Origin: a virus | IMG/VR virus record: IMGVR_UViG_3300025012_000956 | Coordinates: 1 to 64,000 of that record | DNA: 64,000 bases | Direction: 5' to 3' (one strand) | In this document: positions 6,455 to 27,105 of the stretch, in pieces | Numbering within the stretch: position 1 is the first letter of the stretch | How the letters are laid out: each line of letters starts with the position of its first letter | Notes under the pieces: model-generated | What the model saw: the letters and a program-made list of their open reading frames with translations, nothing else | Told to the model about the DNA's origin: nothing | The model's database searches: none | Position numbers and translations under genes: made by a program

Positions 6455-6772
6455 ATGAAGAAAGAAAAAAATAGTACTGAGAAGGCTGACCAATCTGAAA
6501 AAAATGTAGTTAAGCATGAAACCAGAGATAAACTTATTAGCGAAGTTTATAAAATGATTAACGAATCTGAGTCTGATTATTTTGCAACATTTTTAGATGA
6601 GGAAGAATCGACATCAACTATTATAGATTGGGTCTCTACAGGAGACCCAATTTTGGATATCCACATAAGCAATAGAATGAATGGAGGCATTGCAGTCGGG
6701 CGAATTTCAGAAATTAATGGATTAGAGTCATGTGTAACTGAGGATACACTTATTGATATAATAGTTGAATAA
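6455..6772 (+). CDS. uvsX: UvsX recombinase N-extein plus 13-residue N-intein
   Basis: This encodes 105 residues. Residues 1-92 are the start of the RecA/UvsX strand-exchange ATPase (STGDPILDIHISNRM, then RISEINGLES). Residues 93-105 (CVTEDTLIDIIVE) are an intein beginning at catalytic Cys1, followed by a stop. The break falls inside Walker A: NGLES here, SGKSLL at the start of the C-extein, together GLESSGKS. The product must be trans-spliced with the 7275-8579 product to be active. Extein total is 402 residues, near T4 UvsX (391). Confidence 0.88.
   Translation: MKKEKNSTEKADQSEKNVVKHETRDKLISEVYKMINESESDYFATFLDEEESTSTIIDWVSTGDPILDIHISNRMNGGIAVGRISEINGLESCVTEDTLIDIIVE
6731..6769 (+). other. 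UvsX split intein, N-part (13 aa)
   Basis: Starts at TGT (Cys1) right after the GLES of Walker A and runs 13 codons to TAA at 6770-6772. It holds only the first beta strand of block A. Most natural split inteins have N-parts near 100 residues, so this is an atypical split position. The reading frame stays open after the TAA into the endonuclease gene. Confidence 0.82.
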
Positions 6773-6847
6773 AATAATGTTCAACCTAAGAATAAGAATT
6801 TTGCAAAGGGTAAAGATAGTAATAGTTATGGAAGATCACCATCAATT

Positions 6848-7300
6848 ATGTCTGGGAGGGGAATCAATGGATATTTAAATTATTACGATAATAAAATATA
6901 TTTTAGAAGTAGTCTAGAGATGTTAGTTTATATTTATTTATGTGAAAATAATGTAAGGTTTGAATTATCCAAACATAGAATAGAGTATGATAACGGAAAT
7001 AAGACATATAATCCAGATATAGTTATTGATAATACAATAATAGAAATAAAACCAAAATTTCTATTAAATTGTAAAACAGTTGTGGACAAATTAGAAGCTC
7101 TCAAAAATTATTGTAATATATTTAACCTTAAATTTAAAATAATTACAGAAGATTCATATGAAATATGGAAATATTTCAATAAAGATTTTATAGAATTGTT
7201 AATAAAAGAAAATAAATTGATATTATCAGATAAACAAAAAGAAAGATTATATAACTATAATTGGAAGTTTAATTATGGACATACAAAAAATAAAAATTAA
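6848..7300 (+). CDS. PD-(D/E)XK homing endonuclease in the uvsX intein
   Basis: This encodes 150 residues from the first ATG. Residues 19-24 (FRSSLE) and NPDIVIDNTIIEIKPK (PD at 56-57, E66, K68) form the PD-(D/E)XK nuclease core, with the Arg-Ser-Ser-Glu helix ahead of it as in the other nucleases of this type here. The frame is open upstream back to the UvsX TAA, so the true start could lie earlier. It overlaps the C-intein gene by 26 bases. It would spread the intein by cutting intein-less uvsX. Confidence 0.75.
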   Translation: MSGRGINGYLNYYDNKIYFRSSLEMLVYIYLCENNVRFELSKHRIEYDNGNKTYNPDIVIDNTIIEIKPKFLLNCKTVVDKLEALKNYCNIFNLKFKIITEDSYEIWKYFNKDFIELLIKENKLILSDKQKERLYNYNWKFNYGHTKNKN

Positions 7301-7646
7301 AGATGTTAAAAAGTTACTCGATTCGGGCAAAATAGTAAGGGTGAAAACTCTAAATGGAGATTTTACTAAGATTAAGAATTATATTACTAAAGGAATACTA
7401 GATACATATGAAATTGAACTTGAAAACCTTAATAAGATTAAGGTTTCGGCAACCCATCTGTTTTTTAGTAATATTGGATGGATTAAAACCGAAAATCTGA
7501 AAGTCAATAAACATAGTTTGTTGTGTGATGATGGTGGGTACCATCTTGTTAAGAAAATAGAATATGTAGGAAAACATAATATAGTTGATATAGGTGTAGA
7601 ACATTTAGAACAGTGCTATTTCGGTAATGGAATACTTAATCATAAT
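7275..7646 (+). other. UvsX split intein, C-part (124 aa)
   Basis: Holds nearly the whole intein fold, including the block B-like SATHLFFSNIGW and terminal block G with His-Asn at 7641-7646. Ser (TCT, 7647) is the +1 nucleophile. With the 13-residue N-part it totals 137 residues, a normal mini-intein size. Confidence 0.82.
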
Positions 7647-8579
7647 TCTGGAAAATCTTTGTTAATCGGTCACATATTAGCAGAAACTCAGAAAAAAGAT
7701 GGAATTGCCGTATTAATAGATACTGAAGATGCGATTGATAGAGATTTTTTAAAAATTATAGGCGTGGATCTAAATAAATTAATTTATGTAAATACAAATT
7801 TAATAGAAGATGTATTTGAAATAATTGAGAGTATTATAGAAAAGGTTAGAAAAGATGACTCTAATAAACTTATTACCATAGCAGTTGATTCTATAATGGG
7901 CGCAACGGATAAAACAGAAGATGAAGCGGGCTGGGACAAAGCAGGTTATAAGACTCAAAAAGCAATTATCATTGGACAAGCAATGAGAAAAATAACTCAT
8001 ACGATTGCAAAATATAGAATTGCGCTTGTGTTTACTAATCAATTAAGAACCAAGCTCGGGGTACTTTGGGGAGATCCTCTCACAACATCCGGAGGTAAAG
8101 CTATTGGATTTCATGCATCACTCAGACTTAGATTAAAAATGTTATCTCAGATAAAATTGAAGGACAAAACTGTTGGTATTAAGGTAAACTGTACTGTAAA
8201 AAAGAGCAGATTTGGTTCAATGTATAATTCATGTAACTTTGATATTTATTTTGATAGAGGACTAGATCCTATTTCAACTTGGTTTGAAGAAGGAAAACGA
8301 TATAAAATAATAATTCCTGCAAAAAAATTGGATGATGTTGGTAAAAAAATGAAAGAAGTGAAGGGATGGAACATGTTAGATACTGATGAAAATCAACCTG
8401 AGCACTTTTTCCAACTACCGTCGTTTGAAGAAAAAATATTAAAAAATTCGGAAAAAAAGGAATACTTATATACAAAATTAGTTGACAATATTCTTCTAAA
8501 ATATAAGAACAGGTCTCAACTTATTCCTATGGATAAAGAAGAGCTGAAGTATATAGGCGATGAAGAAGATGAAGGATAA
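7275..8579 (+). CDS. uvsX: C-intein plus UvsX recombinase C-extein
   Basis: This encodes 434 residues. Residues 1-124 are the C-intein, ending GNGILNHN, with Ser as the first extein residue. The extein begins SGKSLLIGHIL (second half of Walker A). It continues with AVLIDTEDAIDRDFL, the Walker B-like strand ITIAVDSIMG, and FTNQLRTKLG (L2/Q motif). The extein part is 310 residues. Start is ATG 7275, inside the endonuclease gene, suggesting coupled translation. Recombinase role is known for the family; trans-splicing is inferred from intact intein termini. Confidence 0.88.
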   Translation: MDIQKIKIKDVKKLLDSGKIVRVKTLNGDFTKIKNYITKGILDTYEIELENLNKIKVSATHLFFSNIGWIKTENLKVNKHSLLCDDGGYHLVKKIEYVGKHNIVDIGVEHLEQCYFGNGILNHNSGKSLLIGHILAETQKKDGIAVLIDTEDAIDRDFLKIIGVDLNKLIYVNTNLIEDVFEIIESIIEKVRKDDSNKLITIAVDSIMGATDKTEDEAGWDKAGYKTQKAIIIGQAMRKITHTIAKYRIALVFTNQLRTKLGVLWGDPLTTSGGKAIGFHASLRLRLKMLSQIKLKDKTVGIKVNCTVKKSRFGSMYNSCNFDIYFDRGLDPISTWFEEGKRYKIIIPAKKLDDVGKKMKEVKGWNMLDTDENQPEHFFQLPSFEEKILKNSEKKEYLYTKLVDNILLKYKNRSQLIPMDKEELKYIGDEEDEG

Positions 8580-9682: not shown

Positions 9683-11023
9683 GTGGAAGTAGATAATCTT
9701 GCAAATTTTGGTCAATCATATCAATCGAAAACGATTTATTCTTTGCTTACTGATGGGCCATTTTTAGAACAGATAGAAGATGTTTTATTTACAGAATATT
9801 TTGAATCTGAAGCGAATCAATGGATTGTAAAAATAATCAAACAGCACTTTGAGGTGTTTAAAGTACCCCCTACTTTAGATGTATTTAAATGTGAACTAGA
9901 AAAAGAAACAAATGATTTATTTAAAGAAGAAATCATAAAGAGATTATCAGATGCGCTTGATTATAAAGATGCACAAGACCTGCAATATATAAAGGAAAAC
10001 TTTATTCAGTTCTGTATCAATCAGCACTACAAGATTACATTTTATCAATCCTTAGATGATTATAAAAAAGGAAATTATTCTGCGATTAGAAAAAGATTCG
10101 AAGATGCAGAAAAAGTAGGACAAAGTAGAGATTTAGGTCTTATGTTATTAGACAAAACAGCAGACACTGTAATGAATCAACTTAAGAGAAAAACTATATC
10201 AACTCCATGGGACATAATAAATGATATGACAGAAGGAGGCTTGGCACCTGGGGATTTATCAATAATAGTTGGAGGACCGGGAGCGGGAAAATCATGGTTT
10301 TTATGCAATGTTGGGTCGCATGGTTTAAAATTAGGATTAAACATAATCCATTATACATTAGAACTAGATGATATAATGATTGCAAGAAGATATTATTCTT
10401 TATTTACTGGTATACCGAGTATGGATTTAAAATATAGTTTAAGTGAAATAGATAGTAAAATTACTGTATATAAGAATAAAAATGCAACACTATGTATAAA
10501 GAAATACCCAACAAAACGTGCATCTATTAATACTCTAATTACACATGTTAAAAAATATAAATCCATGGGGTTAAACCCTGACTTAATTGTAGTAGATTAT
10601 GCTGATTTACTTAAGCCAGAAAAATTTTACAAAGACAAACGATTAGAATTAGGTAACATATATGAGGAACTAAGAGGAATGGCTGGTGAACTTCAGGTAC
10701 CAATTTGGACTGGAAGTCAGGCAAACCGTTGTCTATTTTTAGATACAAATGTTATAACATGTGATAAGGGTACTATAAAAATAGTAAATATTACTGTAGG
10801 AGATAAAATATTAACGCATGCTGGGTTTAAAAAAGTAACATTTATATATCCTATAGAAAAACAACCCGTTTATAAAATCAAAACAAAGGGAGGAAAAGAA
10901 ATTTTGGTTTCTGCTAAGCATTTATTTCCAGTTCAATACAATAAGTTCAAATCAATTGATAGTGGTCTAGTTCCAGGTGATAAATTATTTATTAAAAAGC
11001 AAAAATTGACACCTAGTTCATAA
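9683..11023 (+). CDS. 41: gp41-like replicative helicase N-extein plus N-intein
   Basis: This encodes 446 residues from a GTG start. Residues 1-349 are a DnaB-type hexameric helicase. Walker A is IVGGPGAGKSWF, Walker B is LIVVDYADLL, and the extein ends at the TGSQANR motif. Residues 350-446 are an N-intein beginning CLFLDTNVITC and followed by a stop. The insertion site equals that of the gp41-8 type split intein (Gln-x-Asn-Arg, then Ser). The C-terminal part of the helicase is encoded at 12190-12651, giving 456 extein residues (T4 gp41: 475). Confidence 0.88.
   Translation: MEVDNLANFGQSYQSKTIYSLLTDGPFLEQIEDVLFTEYFESEANQWIVKIIKQHFEVFKVPPTLDVFKCELEKETNDLFKEEIIKRLSDALDYKDAQDLQYIKENFIQFCINQHYKITFYQSLDDYKKGNYSAIRKRFEDAEKVGQSRDLGLMLLDKTADTVMNQLKRKTISTPWDIINDMTEGGLAPGDLSIIVGGPGAGKSWFLCNVGSHGLKLGLNIIHYTLELDDIMIARRYYSLFTGIPSMDLKYSLSEIDSKITVYKNKNATLCIKKYPTKRASINTLITHVKKYKSMGLNPDLIVVDYADLLKPEKFYKDKRLELGNIYEELRGMAGELQVPIWTGSQANRCLFLDTNVITCDKGTIKIVNITVGDKILTHAGFKKVTFIYPIEKQPVYKIKTKGGKEILVSAKHLFPVQYNKFKSIDSGLVPGDKLFIKKQKLTPSS
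10730..11020 (+). other. gp41 split intein, N-part (97 aa)
   Basis: Starts at Cys1 (TGT 10730) after SQANR and includes block A (CLFLDTNVITC) and block B-like VSAKHLFPV. It stops at 11021-11023. Size and break position are those of canonical split inteins, where the endonuclease domain would sit. Confidence 0.85.
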
Positions 11024-11033
11024 GAATTTTTTA

Positions 11034-11067
11034 TTTTTCTATATATTATTATAATAAAATAGGAAAA
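11034..11067 (+). promoter_or_regulatory. AT-rich element with RBS-masking hairpin
   Basis: The T-rich stretch TTTTCT (11035-11040) can pair with GGAAAA (11062-11067), which contains the ribosome binding site of the endonuclease starting at 11071. The loop holds the AT-rich TATATTATTATAATA. It resembles the promoter-like element before other endonuclease genes here. Pairing was judged by eye. Confidence 0.4.
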
Positions 11068-11070
11068 TAC

Positions 11071-12200
11071 ATGGAAACAATATCATTCGATGATTTTACA
11101 AAATTCAAAAACATTAAAACATATAGATTAACTAACAAACAAAAACAGCAACTGGTAGACATATTAAATTCATTTGATAAAAATATATATCATCAAATAG
11201 ATATATAATAGAAAACTTTATAAAGTATGATGTAGAATTTGATCCTACTTGGAAAAACAGGTTTATTAAAATTAAAAATATTTTAAAGCATGATTCTTGT
11301 TCACTAGATTCTTTCGTAACCAGATATGGAAAAAGCAATGGACATACATTGTGGTTAGAAAGAAGAAAAGGTATTAGTGTAACTAAAGAAAAATATGCAA
11401 AAAAGCACGGAATAGATAAAGCTAATGAATTATCACGTAAGAAGGCATGTATTGGTAAACATATAATGATAAATAAATATGGAATTGAAGAAGGAACAGA
11501 TAAATGGAATTCATATTTAAAAAAATGGAAACATAGTTATAAAGAAAATAAACAATATCATAAACCATCAAATACCAAATCTCTGAATTTTTGGGTAAAT
11601 AGATTAGGAAAAGAGGAAGGAACTAAAAAATACAATTTTATTATAGGAAAACAGAAGTATAGATTCTCTAAGCAATATTATATTGATACATACGGGAAAG
11701 AACAAGGAGAAATAGAGTGGCAAAATTATATAGCTTCAATGAATAAAACATCATTAACTTCTTTTATAAGTAGATATGGAGATAAAAAAGGAAACAAAAA
11801 ATTTAAAAAATACTTAGAAAAATTAAAAAGAAGCCATCGATCGACATATTATAGTAAAGTTTCTCAGGAACTATTTTGGTCAATTTATAATTTACTACCT
11901 CAAATCACCCAGCAATATTGTAGATTTGCTGAATTTGGTGGAGAAGAAAAAATATACTACATAAATGATTATGATATCTTTTATCCAGATTTTAAGTTGT
12001 GCAATGTTGTAATAGAATTTGATGGTGATTATTGGCACAGCAGAGAAACTACAATTATAGCAGATAAACTCAGAGAAGAAAAATTGATTAGCAAAGGATA
12101 TGAAGTATTGAGAATTAAAGAAAAAGATTATAGTTTAAACGAAGAATTAATACTTGATAATTGTATTGAATTTATAAAGGAAAATATAAATGAAACATAG
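11071..12200 (+). pseudogene. Vsr-like homing endonuclease in gene 41, frame-interrupted
   Basis: ATG 11071 gives 45 residues to a stop at 11206. One frame lower, the frame is open from 11181 to 12200 (main ORF from 11349). A missing base near 11200 would join them to about 375 residues. The body has four or five repeats of a (F/Y)xxRYG...G...W pattern, probably DNA-binding. The C-terminus has YPDFKLCNVVIEFDGDYWHS and a following basic helix, matching the Vsr-like nucleases described in fractured phage genes. Overlaps the C-intein gene by 11 bases. Activity is doubtful if the frame break is real. Confidence 0.7.
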
Positions 12201-12327
12201 GTTAAAGAAGGGGGACTTTATAATAGATGAAATAGAGTCTATAGAATTAGTAGGAGATTTGCCAACAATAGATATTGAAGTAGAAAAAACGCATATGTTT
12301 TTTGCAAATGATATATATGTGCATAAT
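12190..12327 (+). other. gp41 split intein, C-part (46 aa)
   Basis: Contains block F (PTIDIEVEKTHMFFAN) and block G (DIYVHN), with +1 Ser at 12328. With the 97-residue N-part the intein totals 143 residues. Confidence 0.85.
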
Positions 12328-12651
12328 TCTGGTTCCTCAACAGAGTTTATTTCAGGAGAACAAATTGCAGAAGATTACAGTAAAATAATGACAGGAGATT
12401 TTATATTTTCTATTTCACGTAAAATAGAGGATGCAATGCATAAAACTGCTAGAATTTTTATAATAAAAAACAGATTTGGAGTTGATAAAATAATATGTCC
12501 TGCAAAATTTGATGTTTCAAATGGAAATTCTGTAATTCATGATCCATCATCTTTACTAGGCAAAGAAACTAAAGGTCAGATGAATAAAGATGATAATATA
12601 AAGAGTTTAATAAGAGAAAGATTGTTTTCTGACAAAAAAAGAAAAAAATAA
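12190..12651 (+). CDS. 41: C-intein plus gp41-like helicase C-extein
   Basis: This encodes 153 residues. Residues 1-46 are the C-intein, ending FFANDIYVHN with +1 Ser. The extein of 107 residues begins SGSSTEFISGEQIAEDYSK and includes the C-terminal helicase segment (IMTGDFIFSISRK, then RIFIIKNRFGVDK). Start ATG 12190 lies inside the endonuclease gene. It is the last gene before the 266-bp regulatory-looking gap preceding nrdJ. Confidence 0.87.
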   Translation: MKHRLKKGDFIIDEIESIELVGDLPTIDIEVEKTHMFFANDIYVHNSGSSTEFISGEQIAEDYSKIMTGDFIFSISRKIEDAMHKTARIFIIKNRFGVDKIICPAKFDVSNGNSVIHDPSSLLGKETKGQMNKDDNIKSLIRERLFSDKKRKK

Positions 12652-12917: not shown

Positions 12918-14234
12918 ATGATAAAGTTTGAAGATGTAAAAAATATTACCAATGAAGAATATTTCAATGGAAATCAATTTTCTATTGATGCTTATAATAA
13001 AAAATATGCAGCCTATCCAGAAGAAACTTACGTAAAAGCCCTCAAACGAGTATGTGATTTTGTAGCATCTGTTGAGGCTACAGAAGAACTTAAAAAATAT
13101 TGGAGTGAAAAATGGTTCGATGAAATTTATAATGATTGGTGGCATCCTGCTGGGAGTATAATGCAAGGAGCAGGTTCTGGTAGAAAAATTTCATTATCTA
13201 ATTGTACTACAATTTCAATGGGTGTCCTAGATGATAATAAGGAATGGGATAATTTAGAATCTATAATAAAAAATACAGGTTATACATTAGCAAAAGCTGC
13301 TGCATATCGTCAAGGATCAGGAATCGATGGTTCACGACTTCGTCCAGAAGGATCCTCAGTTTTAAATTCTGCTAATACTAGTACTGGAGTATTACACTGG
13401 CTACAGTGGTTAGATAGTATGGCATATTGTGTAGGGCAAAACGGACGCAGGCCGGCAATGCTTTTCTCATTATCTTGTTCCCACCCAGATATAGAAAAAT
13501 TTATAACTGTTAAATCTGATTACACTACAATTCAAAATGCTAACATTAGCGTTCAAATTACAAATAAATTTTACGAAGCAGCAGAAAAGAATGAAGATTG
13601 GGAATTATATTTTAAGGTATCTAAAACTAAAAAAGGTGACAAAATATATTTGGATATACATTCTATAGACATAGATTGTTTATGGGATAAAGAAGTTAAG
13701 TCTTGGTATAGAATTGCCACGCACGATAAAAAAGAACAGGTTATAAGAAAAACGGTTAATGCTAGAAAGCTTTTAGAATTGATTGCCGAAAATATGAGTA
13801 ACAATGCAGAACCAGGAATTCAAAATATTGACATAGCCAGAGAGTACTCAAACTCAGACGTTTTTTATGATCCAGAAAATAAAGAATTCGATCCTAGAAT
13901 TATTTCTACAAATGCCTGTTGTGTAGTAGAAGAAACGAAGGTGATGACTGACAAGGGATGGTTAACGATGGAACAGATTTATGATACAATGATTAATAAA
14001 AAAGAAACATTATTAGGAATGAGCTATAATATTAAAGAAAAATTATATGAGTTTAAACCTATATCAAATGTATATCAACATAGAAATGATGTTACTGTTA
14101 ATTTAGAAATAGAAGAAGAAGGAAAAATTTATAGAATAGAGTGCTCATCTGATCATCCTATATTAACAGAGAATAGAGGATTTGTAAAAGCTATTAGTTT
14201 GTCTAAAGATGATAACATAGTAATTTATAAATAA
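12918..14234 (+). CDS. nrdJ: class II ribonucleotide reductase N-extein plus N-intein
   Basis: This encodes 438 residues. Residues 1-334 are the NrdJ start: GAGSGRKISLSNCTT, YRQGSGIDGSRLRP, then IISTNAC. Residues 335-438 are an N-intein starting CVVEETKVMTDKG with block B-like CSSDHPILTENRG, then a stop. NrdJ reduces ribonucleotides using adenosylcobalamin and needs no separate radical subunit; none is seen here. The insertion point NAC/SE equals that of the NrdJ-1 split intein. The reductase is completed at 15308-17014 (865 extein residues). Confidence 0.88.
   Translation: MIKFEDVKNITNEEYFNGNQFSIDAYNKKYAAYPEETYVKALKRVCDFVASVEATEELKKYWSEKWFDEIYNDWWHPAGSIMQGAGSGRKISLSNCTTISMGVLDDNKEWDNLESIIKNTGYTLAKAAAYRQGSGIDGSRLRPEGSSVLNSANTSTGVLHWLQWLDSMAYCVGQNGRRPAMLFSLSCSHPDIEKFITVKSDYTTIQNANISVQITNKFYEAAEKNEDWELYFKVSKTKKGDKIYLDIHSIDIDCLWDKEVKSWYRIATHDKKEQVIRKTVNARKLLELIAENMSNNAEPGIQNIDIAREYSNSDVFYDPENKEFDPRIISTNACCVVEETKVMTDKGWLTMEQIYDTMINKKETLLGMSYNIKEKLYEFKPISNVYQHRNDVTVNLEIEEEGKIYRIECSSDHPILTENRGFVKAISLSKDDNIVIYK
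13920..14231 (+). other. NrdJ split intein, N-part (104 aa)
   Basis: Begins at the second Cys of NACC (TGT 13920) and ends just before TAA 14232-14234. Canonical split position. The preceding extein Cys belongs to the conserved NAC motif of the reductase. Confidence 0.85.
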
Positions 14235-14256
14235 AATACTGTTCATTTATTATAGA

Positions 14257-14291
14257 CTTCTATATTTATAATAAACAATACTTAATAGGAG
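14257..14291 (+). promoter_or_regulatory. RBS-masking hairpin with AT-rich promoter-like loop
   Basis: CTTCTAT (14257-14263) can pair with ATAGGAG (14285-14291) through seven base pairs including one G-U. The 21-base loop completes the AT-rich element CTATATTTATAATA. The masked GGAG is the ribosome binding site of the endonuclease starting at 14299. T4 I-TevI is controlled by a comparable hairpin with a late promoter inside it. Confidence 0.5.
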
Positions 14292-14298
14292 ATTTATT

Positions 14299-15315
14299 AT
14301 GAATAATTGTATAAGGATGAAAGGTAGAATAAAAAGAGGAAACTATAGTTTAGGAAGAGGATATAGTGGTTGGTATACCACTAAATATAATAAAAATGTG
14401 TTCTTACGATCTTTACAAGAATTTGTTTTCGCTAAAGAATTAGATTTTAATAAAATTCCTTTCTTAACAGAACAAACAATATTTAGGATTAACAAAGAAA
14501 ATTATAAACCAGATTTTTTTATATATTCAGATAATATATTTAAAAACTTGATAAAAATAATAGAGTTAAAAAACTCTGAAGATGATTTTAAAAGATATTT
14601 AGATTATATTCCGTATTTTAAGAATATAAACGTAGAGTATGAATTAATAACAGGAAAGGATTTAAGAAAAAATTATATATTCTGTTCAGTTGATGATATG
14701 AATGTGTGGAGGCAGAGTAGTATAAATTCAAGTATCATACTTTCTGGTATACATAATCCAATGTATGGAATGCACCATACAGAAGAAACAAAGAACAAAA
14801 TAGGAAATAAAACTAGAGAATATATGAAGGACCCCACCACAAAAAGAAAACATTCAGAAAATATAAAGGCATTTTGGAATAGTAGTAAATCAGATCATGT
14901 AAAGAAAAAATATAGAAAATTAAGAAAGATAGAAAAAATAAAAAGATTAGAATTAAAAAACATATTAGATCCTATTATAAATTGTAATTGTATTATATGT
15001 GAATCAAAGTTTAAAAAAAGAAAATCATCTAAGAGATTAACATGTTCTGGAAGTTGTGAACAAAAATATACATGGAGAATAGGTAAAAGAAAGTATGTCG
15101 ATTATGCGGATATTGCAAAAAAAACATATAGAAAACGAATACTGGGTTATATGAAAATAATGAATGAAGATATAAATTTGAATAGTATGAGTACGTTGAT
15201 AGATAAGTATAAAAATAATAAATTAATTCCAAATACCTTTGGGTTGAATATTAATATTATTAATAAATATTTTGGAAACTTGGACAATCTGAAACTGGAG
15301 ATAAATAATGGGTAA
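14299..15315 (+). CDS. PD-(D/E)XK homing endonuclease in the nrdJ intein
   Basis: This encodes 338 residues. The catalytic part is N-terminal: FLRSLQEFVF (Glu 41), KPDFFIYSDN (PD at 71-72) and KIIELKN (E89, K91). A NUMOD3-type DNA-binding segment follows (GIHNPMYGMHHTEETKNKIG), then a four-Cys element (CNCIICESK... CSGSCE) and a C-terminal helical region. It shares the nuclease type with the uvsX and gene 44 copies but not with the Vsr-like one in gene 41. Overlaps the C-intein gene by 8 bases. Confidence 0.78.
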   Translation: MNNCIRMKGRIKRGNYSLGRGYSGWYTTKYNKNVFLRSLQEFVFAKELDFNKIPFLTEQTIFRINKENYKPDFFIYSDNIFKNLIKIIELKNSEDDFKRYLDYIPYFKNINVEYELITGKDLRKNYIFCSVDDMNVWRQSSINSSIILSGIHNPMYGMHHTEETKNKIGNKTREYMKDPTTKRKHSENIKAFWNSSKSDHVKKKYRKLRKIEKIKRLELKNILDPIINCNCIICESKFKKRKSSKRLTCSGSCEQKYTWRIGKRKYVDYADIAKKTYRKRILGYMKIMNEDINLNSMSTLIDKYKNNKLIPNTFGLNINIINKYFGNLDNLKLEINNG

Positions 15316-15418
15316 ACTATTATCTATAGAAATATGTGATAAAATAAAAAGGTTATATGATATAGAGATCAAAGACAATAATAATTTTATTGTTAATGAT
15401 GGAATAGTCATACACAAT
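15308..15418 (+). other. NrdJ split intein, C-part (37 aa)
   Basis: Holds block F (LYDIEIKDNNNFIVNDG) and block G (IVIHN), with +1 Ser at 15419. Total intein is 141 residues. Confidence 0.85.
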
Positions 15419-17014
15419 TCTGAACAATACCTAAACCGAGACGGAGGATGTTTCTTAGCGTCAATAAATATGGAGAAATTCGAAACAAATTCATCAACAT
15501 ATAGACCTCAGTTAATTTTAATAGGAGAATCTATAAATAGATTTTTAGATAATGTTGTTTCATGTGAATTGGTTTATCATACTTATGCAACTCCTCATCA
15601 AAGACTTTCAAATGAAATGCTAAGAAGAACAGGTGCAGGGGTTACAAATATCGGTGGGTGGTTATTTAAATTAAATTTGGAATACGGAAGTAAGATAGCA
15701 AATGAAAAAGTAGAGGAATTTTTAGATGTTTATAATTTTAGCTTATACTTATCTACTGTTAATTTAGGTAAGGAAAAAGGAAATTTTAAATTATTTGATA
15801 AAGAAAAAATACTTAAATCTAAATTTATAAAACAACTTATTAAGAGATGGCCAGAATTAACATTTAATACTATGAGAAATGTTACTGTTTCCACCATAGC
15901 TCCATGTGGCACTCTAAGTCTTATGTTCAGACATATGGGTATGGGTTATGGAGTCGAGCCATCATTTGGAATATATTATTGGAAGAGAACAAGAATAAGT
16001 GGTAAATATGAATATTATTTCATAGTTCCTTATATTGTGAGAGAAGCATTTGACACAGCAGGAATTCCTATTCCAATGAAATCAGACACTATTAAAGATA
16101 CGTGGGATGGAAAATATGGTATACCAATAGCACAATTCATAGATGAAAATAAATCTAAATTAGACATACATTTTAAATCTGCAACTGAAATAAATCCATT
16201 AAATAAATTAGATTTAATGATTAGAGCAATGAAGTCAGTTGATTCTTCTATCTCAGTAACATACATGTTACCGGAGAGTAGCAACCCTAAAGATGTATAT
16301 GAGTTTATATTAAAAGCACATGAAGGTGGAGTAAAATCTATTGCTGCATTTCCTGATAGAAAAATGTATGGGATTATTTCTTATGTTCCATTTAAAGAAT
16401 TAGCGAATAAATTATTATCAGAAAATACCATTATAACACCACAGAACTTTACTGAAGGGGAATTGCAAGAATTGAACATGTCATTAGATTTTATTAAAGC
16501 TAGTTCAGCTCCGAAGAGGCTTAAAAAATTACCAGCAGATATTTATAATATTACAGTTAAAACTGAAAAATTTATTGTTGCTATTGGTTTATTAAATGGA
16601 GCCCCATATGAAATTTTTTGCGGTAAAATGAATGGATTAAATTTTAAATTTGTTCATAAGAAAGGTATAATTGAAAAGGTTAAACGCGGTCAATATAAAT
16701 TAGATATAGGTGAAGATATTTCAGTAGAAGATTTCTCCGGATATTTTAAACCTGTAGAAGCAGAATTGTTTAGGATGGTTTCTACTGCGCTTAGACACGG
16801 CGTACCCATTAGATTTTTGGTAGAACAATTAAGTAAATCTGCAGAAGATTTACAATCATTAACAATTGCAGCTGCTCGCGTATTGAAGAAATATATAAAG
16901 GCAGGAGAAGTAACTGGAATTCAATGTCCTCAGTGTTGTTCTTCTGTTATATATGACGAAACAGGGTGTACTACATGTACAAACTTACAATGTGGATGGG
17001 CTAAATGTTTTTAA
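15308..17014 (+). CDS. nrdJ: C-intein plus class II ribonucleotide reductase C-extein
   Basis: This encodes 568 residues. Residues 1-37 are the C-intein ending VNDGIVIHN, with +1 Ser. The extein starts SEQYLNRDGGCFLASINM. It contains STIAPCGTLSLMF and SSISVTYMLPESS of the alpha/beta barrel, and ends in a Cys-rich tail (QCPQCC, then CTTCTNLQCGWAKCF) typical of NrdJ, which passes electrons to the active site. ATG 15308 lies within the endonuclease gene. Confidence 0.88.
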   Translation: MGKLLSIEICDKIKRLYDIEIKDNNNFIVNDGIVIHNSEQYLNRDGGCFLASINMEKFETNSSTYRPQLILIGESINRFLDNVVSCELVYHTYATPHQRLSNEMLRRTGAGVTNIGGWLFKLNLEYGSKIANEKVEEFLDVYNFSLYLSTVNLGKEKGNFKLFDKEKILKSKFIKQLIKRWPELTFNTMRNVTVSTIAPCGTLSLMFRHMGMGYGVEPSFGIYYWKRTRISGKYEYYFIVPYIVREAFDTAGIPIPMKSDTIKDTWDGKYGIPIAQFIDENKSKLDIHFKSATEINPLNKLDLMIRAMKSVDSSISVTYMLPESSNPKDVYEFILKAHEGGVKSIAAFPDRKMYGIISYVPFKELANKLLSENTIITPQNFTEGELQELNMSLDFIKASSAPKRLKKLPADIYNITVKTEKFIVAIGLLNGAPYEIFCGKMNGLNFKFVHKKGIIEKVKRGQYKLDIGEDISVEDFSGYFKPVEAELFRMVSTALRHGVPIRFLVEQLSKSAEDLQSLTIAAARVLKKYIKAGEVTGIQCPQCCSSVIYDETGCTTCTNLQCGWAKCF

Positions 17015-19604: not shown

Positions 19605-20412
19605 TAATCCTAGATGTAAATGTATATTAAATTATACAACTAAAAAGGGATATCTAGGTGCTTTACGTAGAAATACTATGTGTAAAAGTTGTTCAATGAG
19701 TAAATCTCCCAATAAATTAGTCTATGAAAGAATATGTCCTAATCCTAAAGATAATCCAGGTTGTAGAGTAAATTTAAAATATAAAAGTAAACAAAAATAT
19801 TATATAGCATTAGAAAAAAATTCTACATGTCATAGTTGTTGTTCCTATAGTAATGCATATAATATCTGTAGAAAATGTTCAAATGAAACGAAGAAAAAAT
19901 TATCTATTATATTTAAAGGTAGAAAATTTACTGATGAGTGGAAAAATAATATTAGAATTGCAAGATTAAAGATGATCGAGTCTGGAAAAAACTTTGGAAT
20001 GTATGGAAGTAGTATGTATGATAGTTGGTTAATTAAATATGGTAAAGAGGAAGCAGATAAAAAACAGATAGAAAAAATAAAGAAAATCAGATTAAAACTT
20101 CACACGAGATTGAAGGATAAATTTAATTGTATTAGTCCAGCATTCTTTAATCCAGAAGCATGCAAAATAATAGATGAATATGGTAAAACTAACGGCTATT
20201 CATTCCAACATGCTCTAAACGGTGGAGAATTTTATATTAAAGAATTGGGTTATTGGGTAGATGGGTATGATAAAGATAAAAACGTTGTTATAGAAATTGA
20301 TGAAAAGCATCATTTTGATAAAAATGGAAATTTAAGAGAATCTGATAGTAATAGACAGGCCGAAATAGAAAATTTACTATGTTGTAAAAAATTCATTAGA
20401 GTAAAAATTTAA
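19564..20412 (+). CDS. Cys-rich, Vsr-like free-standing homing endonuclease
   Basis: This encodes 282 residues. The N-terminus has two zinc-finger-like units (RKCPNPNNNPRCKC with CKSC; RICPNPKDNPGC with CHSC). The middle has one NUMOD3-like stretch. The C-terminus has [42 protein letters not shown] and FIRVKI, a Vsr/EDxHD-like nuclease core. It is the intact reference copy of a five-member family here. It sits between the helicase and polymerase genes, its stop overlapping the polymerase ATG. Confidence 0.72.
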   Translation: MELKLIRKCPNPNNNPRCKCILNYTTKKGYLGALRRNTMCKSCSMSKSPNKLVYERICPNPKDNPGCRVNLKYKSKQKYYIALEKNSTCHSCCSYSNAYNICRKCSNETKKKLSIIFKGRKFTDEWKNNIRIARLKMIESGKNFGMYGSSMYDSWLIKYGKEEADKKQIEKIKKIRLKLHTRLKDKFNCISPAFFNPEACKIIDEYGKTNGYSFQHALNGGEFYIKELGYWVDGYDKDKNVVIEIDEKHHFDKNGNLRESDSNRQAEIENLLCCKKFIRVKI

Positions 20413-23400
20413 TGTATACGAATATATATTATGATAGAGAGCGTAATAGAATATCCTTATGGGACGACAAATTTGGATATAGGTCATTCCCATATAAAAA
20501 ATATGCATATATAGAAGATGCTGAAGGTGACTTTTCTACCATCTTTGGTACTAAAGTGAAAAAAATTACAAGTTGGAATAATAATATGGAAGATAAATTA
20601 TATGAATCAGATTTATCTCCAGAGATGAGAACTTTAATAGATGTATATTATGATTCACCTGATAACTTATATCCAGACAATAATATTGTTATATTAGATA
20701 TTGAAGTTGAGACATCTCATTCGCTACCAGATGTATATAAGGCTGAAAATGCTGTTACTGGAATAAGTATTCATGAAAGCAAAAACGATAAATATTATTC
20801 TTTTATATTAGATCTTGATAATAAAATAGATGATAGTAAAATATTTACAGATTCAAAAGGGAATAATGTAATACTTAAAGCTTGTATTTCTGAAAGTCAG
20901 ATGCTTCAGGAATTCATAAATTTGATAGTATTAATTAAACCAACAATATTAACAGGATGGAACATAGAATTCTTTGATATACCATATTTAATTAATAGAA
21001 TAGCAGGTATGTTAGGTGAGGCGATTGTTAAAACATTGTCACCAATAAATATAATTAGATATTCCGAATTTAAAAAAAGATATATTATAGCAGGAATATC
21101 AATTATAGATTATTTAAGTATCTATAAAAAGTTTACATTCTCAGAAGAAGCATCATATAGGTTGGATTCAATAGCTAAGAAAGAAATTGGAAGAGGTAAA
21201 ACTGGATTTGATTGTTCTCTACAAGAATTATATGAAAAGGATATCCATAAATTTATTGAGTATAATATAAATGATGTTGAATTGGTTTTAGAAATAGATA
21301 AAAAGAAAAAATTTATAGATTTAGTAGTAGGTATTTCTCATAAAGGCAGGATTCCATATGAGGATATATTTTATTCTTCTCGTTATCTAGAAGGTGCAAT
21401 TTTATGTGATTTAAAATCTAAAAACTTAGTTGCACCAAATAAACCAAATAGAACTTTAACTAGAGATGTTAGTTTTATAGGTGCATATGTTAAAGATCCA
21501 AAAGTAGGATTTCATGAATGGGTGTTTGATTTAGATTTAACATCTTTATATCCATCAATTATTATGTCACTGAATATATCTCCTGAAACAAAGGTTGGTA
21601 AAATATTAGATTGGAATGCAAATGAATTTACAAGTAGAAAACAGAGAACTTGGAAAGTTTTTAATTTTATAAAAAATGTTGAAGCGGATGTAGATACTAA
21701 AGACTTATGGGATTTTTTAGAAGTTTCTAAATATTATATATCATCAAATGGAATTATCTACCAATCAACGCATCAAAGAGAAGGAGTTATTCCGAAAATA
21801 TTATCTAAGTGGTTCGATGAAAGAGTAGAATATAAAAATCTAATGAAGAAATTTGGTAAAGATAATAAAAAAGACAAGTATGATTTCTATGACAGACTCC
21901 AAAATATACAAAAAGTATTATTAAATTCACTCTATGGTGTACTAGGGTTACCTATTTTTAGATTTTATGATTTAGATAATGCCGCATCTGTTACGGAAAC
22001 AGGTAGATCTATTATAAAATTTTCCGAGAAAAAAGGAGATGAATATTTTAATAATGTTTTGAAAACTAATAATAATTATTGTTTAGCCGGAGACACCGAT
22101 TCTGTTGGAAAAGACAGTGTTATTGATACTAATTTATATGGTAAAATTACATTATTACAGTGTTTTGATAACTTAACTATTAGAGGAGAATGCGATATCT
22201 ATTCCGATATCTCTAACAGAAAATTTATATTCCCAGACAATTTAGTTTTACCCTACTATGATGAAGATAATAAAGAAATATCATATGGTAAGGTGAAATA
22301 TATTGAAAAACACATTATTAACAAGAGAATGTTTAGAATTAAAACAAAATCAGGTAAATTTGTAGACATTACAGAAGATCATTCTTTAATGATTTTAGAT
22401 GAATCGACTAAAAAATTAAAGGAAATCAAACCAAATAAATTAAAAAAAGGTGATAAAATTATTAAATTAAAGTATGACATAGATGAAGTAGACGAGATTA
22501 TAGATTTAGGAATAAAGAAAGAAGTTGTTTTTGATGTGGGCATGGATGATAGTCCACATACGTTTTTTGCAAATAATATTTTAGTACATAATTCAGTATA
22601 TTTCTCAGCATCTCCATTACTTAAATATTTATATCCTAATTTGGATTATTCAAATGAAAAACTTGCTACAGATGCAGTATCTCATATAGTTAGTGATGTA
22701 CAAAAGTATATAAATGATTCATATGATGACTTTGCTAAAGAAATATTAAATATAACGACAGGACATAGATTTAATATAAAACAAGAATTAATTTGTAAGT
22801 CTGGGTTATGGACTGCAAAGAAACGATATGCATTAAAGGTTGTAAATAGAGAAGGAATATTAGTTGATAAATTAGAAGTTAAGGGATTAGATACTGTGAG
22901 GTCTAGTTTTCCTCCAGCATTTAAAGGATTTTTAGAAAAAATGTTAATATCTATATTAGATAAAGAGTCACAGGATAAAATTGATGATGATATAGTTAAG
23001 ATGGAAAACAAATTGAATTCATTTACTATAAACGAAGTATCTAAAAATACCTCAATAACGGATATAGTAAAATATACAGATGAAGTAAGTGGTTATTATG
23101 CAGATAGAATATTTTCTGCTATAAAGAAAGCTACTCCTGCACATGTAAGAGCTGCAATTGCTTTTAATGATTTATTAAAGTATTATGGTTTAGATAATTC
23201 TATTAGTCCGATTAAAAATGGAGAAAAGATTAAGTGGTGTTATCTAAAAAATAATAATTTTGGTTTAGATAAGATTGCATTCAGAGGATATGATGATCCA
23301 AAGGAAATTTTAGATTTTGTAAATACATATATTGATAGGCAACGTATATATGAAAGTGAATTAAAATCTAAAATAGAAAATATATATGCAGCACTTCAGT

Positions 23401-23453
23401 GGAAATTTCCAAGTAGATACAAAAAGTTAGCTAAACAATTTTTCAATATTTAA
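20412..23453 (+). CDS. 43: family B DNA polymerase with in-frame mini-intein
   Basis: This encodes 1013 residues, of which 849 are polymerase (T4 gp43: 898). Exonuclease motifs are VILDIEVETS, LTGWNIEFFDIPYLINR and YNINDVELV. Polymerase motifs are FDLDLTSLYPSIIMS (A), KVLLNSLYGVLG (B) and GDTD/SVYFS (C). Motif C is interrupted by a 164-residue intein that must splice out in cis. The gene lies directly upstream of the sliding clamp and clamp loader, its partners in the holoenzyme. Confidence 0.92.
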   Translation: MYTNIYYDRERNRISLWDDKFGYRSFPYKKYAYIEDAEGDFSTIFGTKVKKITSWNNNMEDKLYESDLSPEMRTLIDVYYDSPDNLYPDNNIVILDIEVETSHSLPDVYKAENAVTGISIHESKNDKYYSFILDLDNKIDDSKIFTDSKGNNVILKACISESQMLQEFINLIVLIKPTILTGWNIEFFDIPYLINRIAGMLGEAIVKTLSPINIIRYSEFKKRYIIAGISIIDYLSIYKKFTFSEEASYRLDSIAKKEIGRGKTGFDCSLQELYEKDIHKFIEYNINDVELVLEIDKKKKFIDLVVGISHKGRIPYEDIFYSSRYLEGAILCDLKSKNLVAPNKPNRTLTRDVSFIGAYVKDPKVGFHEWVFDLDLTSLYPSIIMSLNISPETKVGKILDWNANEFTSRKQRTWKVFNFIKNVEADVDTKDLWDFLEVSKYYISSNGIIYQSTHQREGVIPKILSKWFDERVEYKNLMKKFGKDNKKDKYDFYDRLQNIQKVLLNSLYGVLGLPIFRFYDLDNAASVTETGRSIIKFSEKKGDEYFNNVLKTNNNYCLAGDTDSVGKDSVIDTNLYGKITLLQCFDNLTIRGECDIYSDISNRKFIFPDNLVLPYYDEDNKEISYGKVKYIEKHIINKRMFRIKTKSGKFVDITEDHSLMILDESTKKLKEIKPNKLKKGDKIIKLKYDIDEVDEIIDLGIKKEVVFDVGMDDSPHTFFANNILVHNSVYFSASPLLKYLYPNLDYSNEKLATDAVSHIVSDVQKYINDSYDDFAKEILNITTGHRFNIKQELICKSGLWTAKKRYALKVVNREGILVDKLEVKGLDTVRSSFPPAFKGFLEKMLISILDKESQDKIDDDIVKMENKLNSFTINEVSKNTSITDIVKYTDEVSGYYADRIFSAIKKATPAHVRAAIAFNDLLKYYGLDNSISPIKNGEKIKWCYLKNNNFGLDKIAFRGYDDPKEILDFVNTYIDRQRIYESELKSKIENIYAALQWKFPSRYKKLAKQFFNI
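22101..22592 (+). other. contiguous mini-intein in DNA polymerase motif C
   Basis: Starts with Ser (TCT 22101) after GDTD and ends FFANNILVHN, with +1 Ser of SVYFS. Length is 164 residues. Block B-like FVDITEDHSLMIL is present, and no endonuclease motif. It uses the well-known polymerase DTD/S insertion site. First residue Ser differs from the Cys of the four split inteins. Confidence 0.88.
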
Positions 23454-24226: not shown

Positions 24227-24853
24227 ATGGAATTAAAAATTAATAGTCTGTTCGCAGAAAAATATAGACCTAATAATTTAGATGAATTTGTGGGTAATAA
24301 ACCCATTATAGATAAATTTAAATTATATATAAAAGAAAAGGATATACCTCATTTATTATTGGTTGGCCCACAGGGATGTGGAAAAACTTCCATCTCAAAA
24401 ATATTAGCAAAGACTATATCTCCAGATGACTATTTATATATAAATGCTTCTGATGAAAATAATATTGAAACCGTTAGAAACAAAATTAAAAATTTTGCTA
24501 TCTCTATTTCTATGAATAGTACAATAAAAATAATTATATTGGATGAATGTTTAGATGAGAATACTCCAGTTTCTGTTCTTAGATGCGGTAAAGAAGTTTT
24601 AATAAAAATTAAGGATTTAGATGATTCTGGAGATTTAGTGAAGTCTTTTAATATTAAGAAAAATAGAATAGAATATATGCCTTTTAATTTAATTGATAAA
24701 GGCATCAGCGATGATTGTTTAGAAATAGAATTAGAAACCGGTGAAATTGTTATATGTTCAAAAACACATGGATGGTATATTGAAAATGAGACCGGCGAAA
24801 TTATAATGGTTAAAGCATCTAATTTGAACAAACACATGCACATTATGACATAA
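24227..24853 (+). CDS. 44: clamp loader large subunit N-extein plus N-intein
   Basis: This encodes 208 residues. The AAA+ clamp loader begins LFAEKYRPNNLDEFVGN, with Walker A LLVGPQGCGKTS, and breaks inside Walker B at IIILDE. Residues 108-208 are the N-intein, starting CLDENTPVSVLRCGKE with block B-like VICSKTHGWYI, then a stop. The remaining 206 extein residues are at 26362-27105, total 313 (T4 gp44: 319). The loader opens the clamp using ATP and needs trans-splicing to regain Walker B. Confidence 0.87.
   Translation: MELKINSLFAEKYRPNNLDEFVGNKPIIDKFKLYIKEKDIPHLLLVGPQGCGKTSISKILAKTISPDDYLYINASDENNIETVRNKIKNFAISISMNSTIKIIILDECLDENTPVSVLRCGKEVLIKIKDLDDSGDLVKSFNIKKNRIEYMPFNLIDKGISDDCLEIELETGEIVICSKTHGWYIENETGEIIMVKASNLNKHMHIMT
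24548..24850 (+). other. gp44 split intein, N-part (101 aa)
   Basis: Begins at Cys1 (TGT 24548) after LDE of Walker B and ends before TAA 24851-24853. Canonical split position. Confidence 0.84.
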
Positions 24854-24881
24854 TTTTATACAAAGTGTGATTTTTCTAGAT

Positions 24882-24916
24882 CATACCTATATATATAATT
24901 AAGAAACCTATTGGAG
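24882..24916 (+). promoter_or_regulatory. AT-rich promoter-like element and RBS of the gene 44 endonuclease
   Basis: ACCTATATATATAATT (24884-24899) is a variant of the shared AT-rich element, followed by TTGGAG (24911-24916) about 7 bases before GTG 24923. No strong masking hairpin is apparent at this copy. Confidence 0.4.
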
Positions 24917-24922
24917 AAAGAT

Positions 24923-26365
24923 GTGTTTGTAAAAATATTAGGAAAAAAAATTGAATCAAATAGAAGTATAACAAATTTATTAAGAAATAAATTTAAAACT
25001 GTTGAAGTTGCATACTTATTGGAGCACGGTATGGATGCACCAAAGTGCAAATATTGTGGATTTAAGTGTATGTTTATTAGTTTTTTTAAAGGATATTTGG
25101 ATAGATGTAATTCAAATGAGTGTATACATAGAAGCGTTGTTGATTCCAATAAAATGTTGGGAAAGAAACGTGTTTTGAACAAGTTGAATAAGGACAGTGA
25201 TTTTTATAAATATATCATACAAAATTCAAATTTTTATATAAACAATTTTAAAAAGATAAATATAATAGAACCCTTTACAGGGATACGTACTGGAAAGCTA
25301 ACTCTACGATCCTTTTTACGAAGACGTATTTCTAAAGAATGTTTTTACACATATAAAGATTGTATATATTGTAATTCATCATTCTTAACAGATATTTTTA
25401 TTAATAGAAAATATTGTCATAATTCTAAATGTGTTGAAAAAGCACGTAGAAAATACATTATAAGTTCTAAACAGTTTACTCCTCAAGAGATAAACAATCT
25501 ATATCAGGTTTTTAGAATAGATGGAATATCTCATGTGGATGCGATGACTAAGATAAGAACCGAATATACATCGGACTATGTGTTAATTAATAAAATTTAC
25601 AAATATTATGACGATTACTCAATACTAAAAATTAAATACTTAACATGTCCAGTTACCGGGTTTATTATACCACTTAGATCAAGATCAAACATTTTAAAAA
25701 AACACTGCTTTATTCATAATATAGATATCAATTCATATATAGAAAAGTATTTTCCGAATTTCATCAGTAGGTGTTTATTATGTGCCGACTTTTCAGAAGT
25801 GAAATCAGATCTTATTAAAGAAACACATAAAAAGTTTTGTAACAGGGATCATTATTTACAATACAAAAAAATTAACCCCGATAAATATAGGTGTAGTGAT
25901 GATCAAAAGAATAAACAATCTAAAATAATTAAAAACTTAATTTTAAGTGGTAAATTTACTCCTAAGACTCAAAATAGGTTTACTCACTTTGAGCAAAAAA
26001 TAGTAATTAATAATATAGAGTATAAGTTTAGGAGTTCTTGGGAAGCTGCATTTTTTGTATCTAACAATATAAATTATGAAAAATCGTATGAGAAGTTGAG
26101 AATTTTATATCGTGATAAGCTTGGTAAATCCCACATATATATTTCTGATTTTTATTTACCAAACACTAATACATTATATGAATTAAAACCAAGAAATTTA
26201 TATAAAATACAAAAATATAAAATGAATGAGGTAATTAAATATTGTAAGACTAATAACATCAAATTTATATGGATTAATGAAGATAATTTATTAAATTTCT
26301 TAAACATTGAAATAGTAAAAAATTATCCAACTATTTTCGATAAGATTAAAGGAATAATAAAGTGA
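24923..26365 (+). CDS. PD-(D/E)XK homing endonuclease in the gene 44 intein
   Basis: This encodes 480 residues from GTG 24923, chosen for the GGAG spacing; TTG 24911 is also in frame. It has several two-Cys or four-Cys zinc-like units (KCKYCGFKC; DCIYCNSS with CHNSKC; SRCLLC). The C-terminal nuclease core has FRSSWEAAFFV, then ISDFYLPNTNTLYELKPRN (D, then E-x-K), as in the uvsX and nrdJ copies. The long Cys-rich N-terminal region is unlike those copies. Overlaps the C-intein start by 4 bases. Confidence 0.74.
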   Translation: MFVKILGKKIESNRSITNLLRNKFKTVEVAYLLEHGMDAPKCKYCGFKCMFISFFKGYLDRCNSNECIHRSVVDSNKMLGKKRVLNKLNKDSDFYKYIIQNSNFYINNFKKINIIEPFTGIRTGKLTLRSFLRRRISKECFYTYKDCIYCNSSFLTDIFINRKYCHNSKCVEKARRKYIISSKQFTPQEINNLYQVFRIDGISHVDAMTKIRTEYTSDYVLINKIYKYYDDYSILKIKYLTCPVTGFIIPLRSRSNILKKHCFIHNIDINSYIEKYFPNFISRCLLCADFSEVKSDLIKETHKKFCNRDHYLQYKKINPDKYRCSDDQKNKQSKIIKNLILSGKFTPKTQNRFTHFEQKIVINNIEYKFRSSWEAAFFVSNNINYEKSYEKLRILYRDKLGKSHIYISDFYLPNTNTLYELKPRNLYKIQKYKMNEVIKYCKTNNIKFIWINEDNLLNFLNIEIVKNYPTIFDKIKGIIK

Positions 26366-26484
26366 ATAAAATAAAAATAAAATCAATAAAAAATTACACA
26401 CAGCCCACTCACCTATATGATTTGCATGTATCATCGAATCATAATTTTTTTATCGGCGAAATGGGTACAATTCTCACTCACAAC
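26362..26484 (+). other. gp44 split intein, C-part (41 aa)
   Basis: Block F (LYDLHVSSNHNFFIGE) and block G (TILTHN), with +1 Cys at 26485. The total is 142 residues. Confidence 0.84.
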
Positions 26485-27105
26485 TGTGACTATATGACTC
26501 CTAATGCCCAGGCAGCGTTGAGAAATTTAATGGAAACTTATAGTAGACATACTAGATTTATCTTAACTGCTAATTATTATAATAGAATCTATGAACCTAT
26601 AATTTCTAGGTGTACAGTTTTTGAAATGGGACAAATGCCAAAACCGGATATGGCAAACAGAGTTGCAAACATTTTAGATATAGAAAAGGTAATATATAAA
26701 CCTGAGGATGTGGTTTTATTGATAAACTCTTTTTATCCGGATATGAGACAAATATTAAATGTAACCCAAAGATCAATTACAAATTGGAAACTTGAGGTAA
26801 ATAGTAATGAGATATTAGAATCAGATTATAGGTTGAAAATAATAGATATACTAAAAGATAAAAAGTTATTAAGTGAAACTAAATTTGCGAATATTAGAAA
26901 ATTAATAGCAAATCATCAGATAAAACAATTCACAGATGTGTATAGAATAATGTATGAAAATATAGATGATATTGCAAAAAATGTTTCAGATGTAATCTTA
27001 ATAATTGCAGAACAACAATATCAAGAATCATTTGTGATAGATAAGGAGATCTCCTTTATTGCATGTGTCGTGCGTATATTAAATAGTAATGATATGGAAA
27101 GATAA
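26362..27105 (+). CDS. 44: C-intein plus clamp loader large subunit C-extein
   Basis: This encodes 247 residues from GTG 26362. Residues 1-41 are the C-intein ending GEMGTILTHN. The extein begins CDYMTPNAQAALRNLME, completing Walker B (LDE/CDYMT). It continues RFILTANYYNRIYEPIISRC (sensor 1 and SRC Arg-finger motif) and the C-terminal collar domain. +1 residue is Cys, the only such case among the five inteins. Confidence 0.87.
   Translation: MNKIKIKSIKNYTQPTHLYDLHVSSNHNFFIGEMGTILTHNCDYMTPNAQAALRNLMETYSRHTRFILTANYYNRIYEPIISRCTVFEMGQMPKPDMANRVANILDIEKVIYKPEDVVLLINSFYPDMRQILNVTQRSITNWKLEVNSNEILESDYRLKIIDILKDKKLLSETKFANIRKLIANHQIKQFTDVYRIMYENIDDIAKNVSDVILIIAEQQYQESFVIDKEISFIACVVRILNSNDMER

Follow-up and report, generated by a model that had tools for sequence, protein, structure and literature searches.

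The window analyzed here, a 64,000-nucleotide stretch of a 74.5-kb virus record (IMG/VR record IMGVR_UViG_3300025012_000956), very probably encodes a naturally split, class 1-type intein that interrupts the Walker A motif of a phage UvsX recombinase and would splice in trans; its break lies at the S1 site, and its N-terminal fragment (N-intein) is 13 residues long. The open reading frame (ORF) at 6455–6772 encodes the N-terminal part of a UvsX/RecA-like recombinase up to GLES, followed by the N-intein CVTEDTLIDIIVE and a TAA stop codon. Past a 502-nt gap, the ORF at 7275–8579 begins with MDIQKIKIKDV; its intein part (C-intein) closes with FGNGILNHN at position 7646, and UvsX resumes as SGKSLLIGH. 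The same DNA is present in two further IMG/VR contigs, at 100% identity over 7123 bases (L002) and at 99.99% with one gap (L001).

The features of a class 1 intein are present, namely Cys1, a C-terminal His-Asn pair and Ser+1, and the first 124 residues of the second ORF match the Pfam Intein_splicing profile at 4.5e-7, under the gathering score. In four IMG/VR contigs (L003–L006), an intein-less uvsX reads GLESSGKSLLIGH, with the joined site GLESSGKS; the encoded proteins are 60–63% identical to the window UvsX. Since these uninterrupted relatives give the empty-site sequence, both intein ends are fixed, the interruption of Walker A is shown, and splicing would restore the motif. An earlier interpretation made from the letters of the window alone (the sequence-only reading) had proposed a 13-residue N-intein in UvsX, a C-part of 124 residues, and a break within Walker A (GLES/SGKS), all of which are borne out (Table 1). 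The sections below go beyond that reading in describing an intein family, an endonuclease that has decayed, contiguous relatives, and the range of N-part lengths published for other inteins.

Taken together, a model for trans-splicing can be proposed. The N-precursor would consist of 92 UvsX residues and 13 acidic intein residues, and the C-precursor of a near-complete Hint domain and the rest of UvsX. Upon association of the two precursors, the 13-mer would provide the first β-strand and Cys1; splicing, which would employ Cys1, Ser+1 and the His-Asn pair at the C-terminus, would then ligate GLES with SGKS, so that Walker A is re-formed and, presumably, ATPase activity regained. A PD-(D/E)XK homing endonuclease gene, the probable remains of which lie between the halves, would once have spread the element.

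A family of inteins at one UvsX site

IMG/VR was scanned with an endonuclease alignment and then with the C-intein, which yielded about 30 loci, 23 of them distinct after removal of duplicates. The endonuclease-alignment scan returned a diverged contig, L024, that reads GLEG, CVTEDTLIDVIIE and TAA, followed by a separate endonuclease ORF and the C-part. The N-intein is 13 residues long in 14 of the 23 distinct members (the window, L024, L108, L110, L112, L116, L120, L122, L123, L127, L129, L139, L140 and L141) and 14 residues long in three (L106, L109 and L038); six members are contiguous, with the joined sequence visible (L105, L125, L133, L134, L136 and L138). Because 14 distinct members stop at residue 13 and three at residue 14, the stop after residue 13 is not due to chance. 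Separate ORFs encode the two precursors in the window, where the stop follows residue 13 and the C-part has its own start, and likewise in 16 relatives. Cys1, HN and Ser+1 are retained in 23/23 members.

With tblastn against phage records, only distant matches were obtained (the Salicola phage SCTP-2 uvsX and a phoH-like gene from an uncultured phage). The C-intein alignment found no relative among the genomes of 84,980 prokaryote species, and a UvsX alignment scan returned already known loci plus intein-less or distant ones and nothing else. Two contigs of the family carry a second atypically split intein later in UvsX (L105:5796–7320 and L112:5808–7316), with N-parts of 15 residues; these read GDKW, CVDPFTTKIKIRYKV and a stop in L105, and GDKY, CVDPYTTKIKIRYKI and a stop in L112, followed first by an endonuclease-like ORF and next by the C-part, which resumes at an SGGKA motif.

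The N-intein is conserved as protein

A comparison of the window with L024 shows 10 changed codons among the 13 of the N-intein; eight of the changes are silent, and both replacements are Ile/Val exchanges. For this pair, the number of nonsynonymous substitutions per nonsynonymous site (dN) is 0.105 in the N-intein, compared with 0.417 in the C-intein, 0.59 in the endonuclease and 0.665 in the C-extein, the last being 38% identical. Over 136 pairs of split members, the ratio of nonsynonymous to synonymous differences (pN/pS) is 0.25 for the N-intein and 0.11 for the C-intein end; it is 0.38–0.42 for the last 26 N-extein codons and 0.48 for the first C-extein codons. Since dN and pN/pS both show purifying selection, the 13 residues are kept as protein.

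An endonuclease in decay between the intein halves

The ORF in the gap, which comprises 150 codons and shares the frame of the N-part, matches the Pfam families TnsA-like (1.2e-5) and Phage_endo_I (3.9e-4), both under gathering; its score of 26.2 lies just below the gathering score of 26.5, and that of the L109 enzyme, 27.2, above it. The ORF contains the conserved E...D...ExK motif, and the endonucleases of the TerL inteins in phages Thanatos-2 and SEA1 are homologous to it. An endonuclease or its remnant is found at 15 of the 17 split loci: L024, L106, L108 and L109 possess full-length, putatively active enzymes of 361–426 residues; L123, L129 and L139 have gap-filling matches; L110, L112, L038, L116, L122, L127 and L141 retain C-terminal remnants only (alignments of 23–71 residues). 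No remnant was detectable in L120, where the gap is apparently only 12 nt long, and in L140.

The window endonuclease aligns only to residues 270–425 of the L106 enzyme (47%), and the homology extends past its ATG in the upstream direction, almost as far as the TAA, with no start codon in that stretch. The N-terminal part has therefore been deleted, and because of this deletion the in-frame stretch after the TAA (QPKNKNFAKGKDSNSYGRSPS) is a remnant rather than a read-through extension. Retention of the remnants may be explained by the position of the C-part's start region, which lies within the end of the endonuclease gene. In L024, L108 and L109, a similar AT-rich stretch (CCTGATATTTATATTATATTACC-like) lies past the N-part stop and ahead of the endonuclease ORF (L024:1757–1801, L108:3869–3918, L109:3855–3891); it is possibly a promoter and is absent from the window.

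The 'fractured genes' of Dassa et al. (2009) reportedly pair a split intein with an endonuclease gene in the order N-part, endonuclease ORF, C-part, and are said to have canonical breaks and Vsr-like endonucleases. An endonuclease gene likewise lies between the halves at the UvsX site, truncated in the window and full length in relatives. The gene order is the same, whereas the S1 break and the E...D...ExK enzyme distinguish the window from fractured genes as they are said to be.

Fold, break position and charge

An AlphaFold2 model of the contiguous relative L105 reached a predicted local distance difference test (pLDDT) score of 90.4. Its first two strands span residues 7–11 and 15–19, so that the split break (13/14) falls in the hairpin turn that links them; by this model, the break coincides with the known S1 site, just past β-strand 1. 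The predicted fold is a Hint fold, with intein structures as the top matches of the model. The closest solved structure (Foldseek, VIA-align 2) was VidaL, 6vgv, with a template modeling (TM) score of 0.87, a Z of 19.9 that was tied with DnaB inteins, and a root mean square deviation of 1.5 over 132 residues.

The N-part carries a charge of −4 in the window and of −1 to −6 among split members; the first 30 C-part residues carry +4 in the window and are basic in nearly all split members. The acidic N-part and the basic start of the C-part would attract each other, and the fragments may have affinity for one another.

Comparison with VidaL and other atypically split inteins

The comparison with VidaL drawn in the sequence-only reading was upheld by the insertion point and by the structural match above. 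The VidaL construct (PDB 6vgv/6vgw) begins with ESG and ends with SGK, which places VidaL at the same Walker A point of uvsX as the window site, GLES/SGKS; the S1 break is also shared. A profile built from the window and L024 C-parts matches the VidaL sequence at 8.6e-6. The two inteins are nevertheless only ~20% identical over their whole length, so that the window intein lies outside the VidaL clade, in a sister group. Members of the VidaL clade in IMG/VR (L152–L173) have basic N-parts (+1 to +5) of 15, 16 or 19 residues, whereas those of the window family are acidic and of 13–14 residues. The N-part of L154 and L156 in that clade is CLPKEAVVQIRLTKKG; several of its members are contiguous, and the gaps of its split members are short or ~1.2 kb. 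VidaL-clade members are ~46–59% identical to the intein of Salicola phage SCTP-2 gp204, a homologous mini-intein at the uvsX Walker A site that differs from that of the window in being contiguous and far closer to VidaL. The window family and the VidaL clade can be read as sister groups that share a single insertion site. The IntN of VidaL itself is given as 16 residues in PMC13014065.

Natural atypical N-inteins were described in March 2026 as spanning 15–37 residues, with the record of 15 held by PolB16 OarG (PMC13014065), which had been called 'the shortest characterized to date' in 2023 (PMC10189870). Given this published range, the window clade has the shortest natural N-intein that we found. 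Like the window intein, PolB16 OarG is naturally split at an atypical position and has a very short N-part, but it has Ser1/Ser+1, resides in a PolB gene and has a 168-residue C-part. The N-parts of AceL-TerL and GOS-TerL are also short, but these inteins lie in terL and break after the first helix (S2), with an IntN of 25–37 residues. Inteins that were split artificially at S1 (Ssp DnaB, 11 residues; a set of 11–12 residues, PMC3620165) have the same break as the window and even shorter N-parts; because several of them spliced, a natural 13-residue N-intein is chemically plausible.

The TerL inteins of Thanatos-2 and SEA1 resemble the window in their homologous PD-(D/E)XK endonucleases but reside in terL, that of SEA1 having an N-part of 41 residues. 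The endonuclease is fused to the N-intein in one ORF in Thanatos-2 (L011) and is a separate ORF in SEA1 (L012); in each terL, both extein-bearing ORFs are annotated 'terminase large subunit'. An uncultured phage (L010, LR756500.1) also carries an atypically split intein, in a Walker A motif of a phoH-like gene, in the order N-part (26 residues), endonuclease-like ORF (430 residues) and C-part.

Evolution of the split state

At this one site the family members form a series that runs from a full endonuclease through the truncated one of the window and short remnants to none, and that also includes contiguous inteins. The window exteins group with those of L129 (100/99) and the window intein does not; this difference in grouping, together with the intein-less relatives at 60–63% UvsX identity, indicates intein transfer. 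Contiguous and split forms are intermingled in a tree in which most branches are weak, and an approximately unbiased (AU) test against one split group (p 0.0025) is suggestive, on this weakly resolved tree, of more than a single origin of the split state. Contiguous L125 and split L140 group together in both trees. The L125 junction reads CVTEDTIIDVIIE/MKKEKIKISEI, with the start Met of a C-part directly after residue 13, and looks like a re-fusion by loss of the stop and the gap that left this Met behind. Alternatively, in the opposite direction, a split form may have derived from a contiguous form such as that of L125.

Alternative explanations

Some observations weigh against a trans-splicing intein. 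The block B motif is SxxH in place of the usual TxxH, its His being invariant in a ten-sequence alignment; an AlphaFold2 prediction of the C-part alone, a construct from which strand 1 is absent, reached a pLDDT of 77 and a predicted TM score of 0.56 and was not used; and only 4 of 14 engineered S1 splits spliced (PMC3620165). If the TAA were read through or recoded, the true N-precursor would be longer and include the in-frame endonuclease, with 175 further codons in the window. No ATG, GTG or TTG precedes 6848 in the frame that joins the N-part to the endonuclease, and Thanatos-2 terL provides a precedent for such a fusion. The sequence-only reading had named a longer N-part made in this manner as grounds for its own rejection, for which the relatives give no support. 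Among the 17 split members the N-intein is followed by TAA, TGA or TAG (TAATAA in L110), a further in-frame stop occurs within 26 codons in 13, and nothing is conserved in the in-frame sequence after the stop. The endonucleases of L024, L108 and L109 begin at their own ATG after further stops, the N-terminal deletion accounts for the in-frame stretch in the window, and TAA is the terminator of 47 of the 67 long window ORFs. Read-through, which we consider exceedingly unlikely, was rejected on these grounds. The idea that the window derives from an N-intein/endonuclease fusion of the Thanatos-2 kind was also dropped, as the ORFs of relatives are separate and have additional stops between them, and the deletion explains the frame.

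The truncated endonuclease could point to a decayed intein, with a broken gene, no splicing and a dead UvsX. This is very unlikely, as no catalytic residue has been lost, purifying selection acts on the N-intein in the 17 split members, and both UvsX halves remain open and conserved. The stop could also be an artifact of assembly or sequencing in a single contig, with an intein that is really contiguous, a form that does exist among the relatives; we accord this virtually no probability, given the identical DNA in other contigs, the 502-nt insert with its endonuclease between the halves, and a stop position that is the same in 16 diverged sequences.

Other features of the window

Positions of the features at the uvsX locus are collected in Table 1.

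Table 1. Features of the split-intein uvsX locus, in window coordinates.
Feature	Position	Strand	Evidence
uvsX N-extein: 92 residues up to GLES, where Walker A is half complete	6455..6730	+	ORF; matches intein-less UvsX of L003–L006
N-intein CVTEDTLIDIIVE, 13 residues	6731..6769	+	Sequence; family conservation; purifying selection
TAA stop ending the N-precursor	6770..6772	+	Stop position kept in 17 split members
Endonuclease remnant QPKNKNFAKGKDSNSYGRSPS, in-frame, no start codon	6773..6847	+	Aligns to L024 endonuclease coding sequence upstream of its nuclease domain
Truncated PD-(D/E)XK homing-endonuclease-like ORF, motifs FRSSLE / NPDIV / IEIKPK	6848..7300	+	Pfam below gathering; L106 endonuclease alignment
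C-intein, 124 residues, ends HN	7275..7646	+	Pfam Intein_splicing 4.5e-7; VidaL profile match 8.6e-6; family alignment
uvsX C-extein: starts SGKSLLIGH, with Ser+1 and the other half of Walker A	7647..8579	+	Pfam RecA 8.7e-40; empty-site relatives

The window encodes three further split inteins, for which the earlier claim of breaks near residue 100 proved correct: a DnaB-like helicase (9683–12651; N97/C46), an NrdA-like protein (12918–17014; N104/C37) and a clamp loader (24227–27105; N101/C41), each with an endonuclease-like ORF between its halves. A DNA polymerase at 20412–23453 holds a contiguous mini-intein (GDTD/SVGKDSVIDT...VHN/SVYF) that apparently starts with Ser. Many free-standing HNH/NUMOD3-type endonuclease-like ORFs lie between genes (19564, 43932, 44519, 47755, 51223, 53689 and 63243).

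Implications

We regard it as an evenly balanced question whether all of the following holds: that a uvsX clade sister to VidaL splices naturally with 13-residue N-inteins, shorter than any natural ones described; that these acidic N-inteins are perhaps orthogonal to VidaL; and that split and contiguous states have changed repeatedly, re-fusion in L125 included. As a 13-mer is easily made by peptide synthesis, a natural N-intein of this length is a candidate tool for labeling the front ends of proteins, with possible use alongside VidaL since the charges of their N-parts differ (acidic versus basic). For the inteins themselves, the series of family members at one site opens tests of how inteins become split and of whether splitting is reversible.
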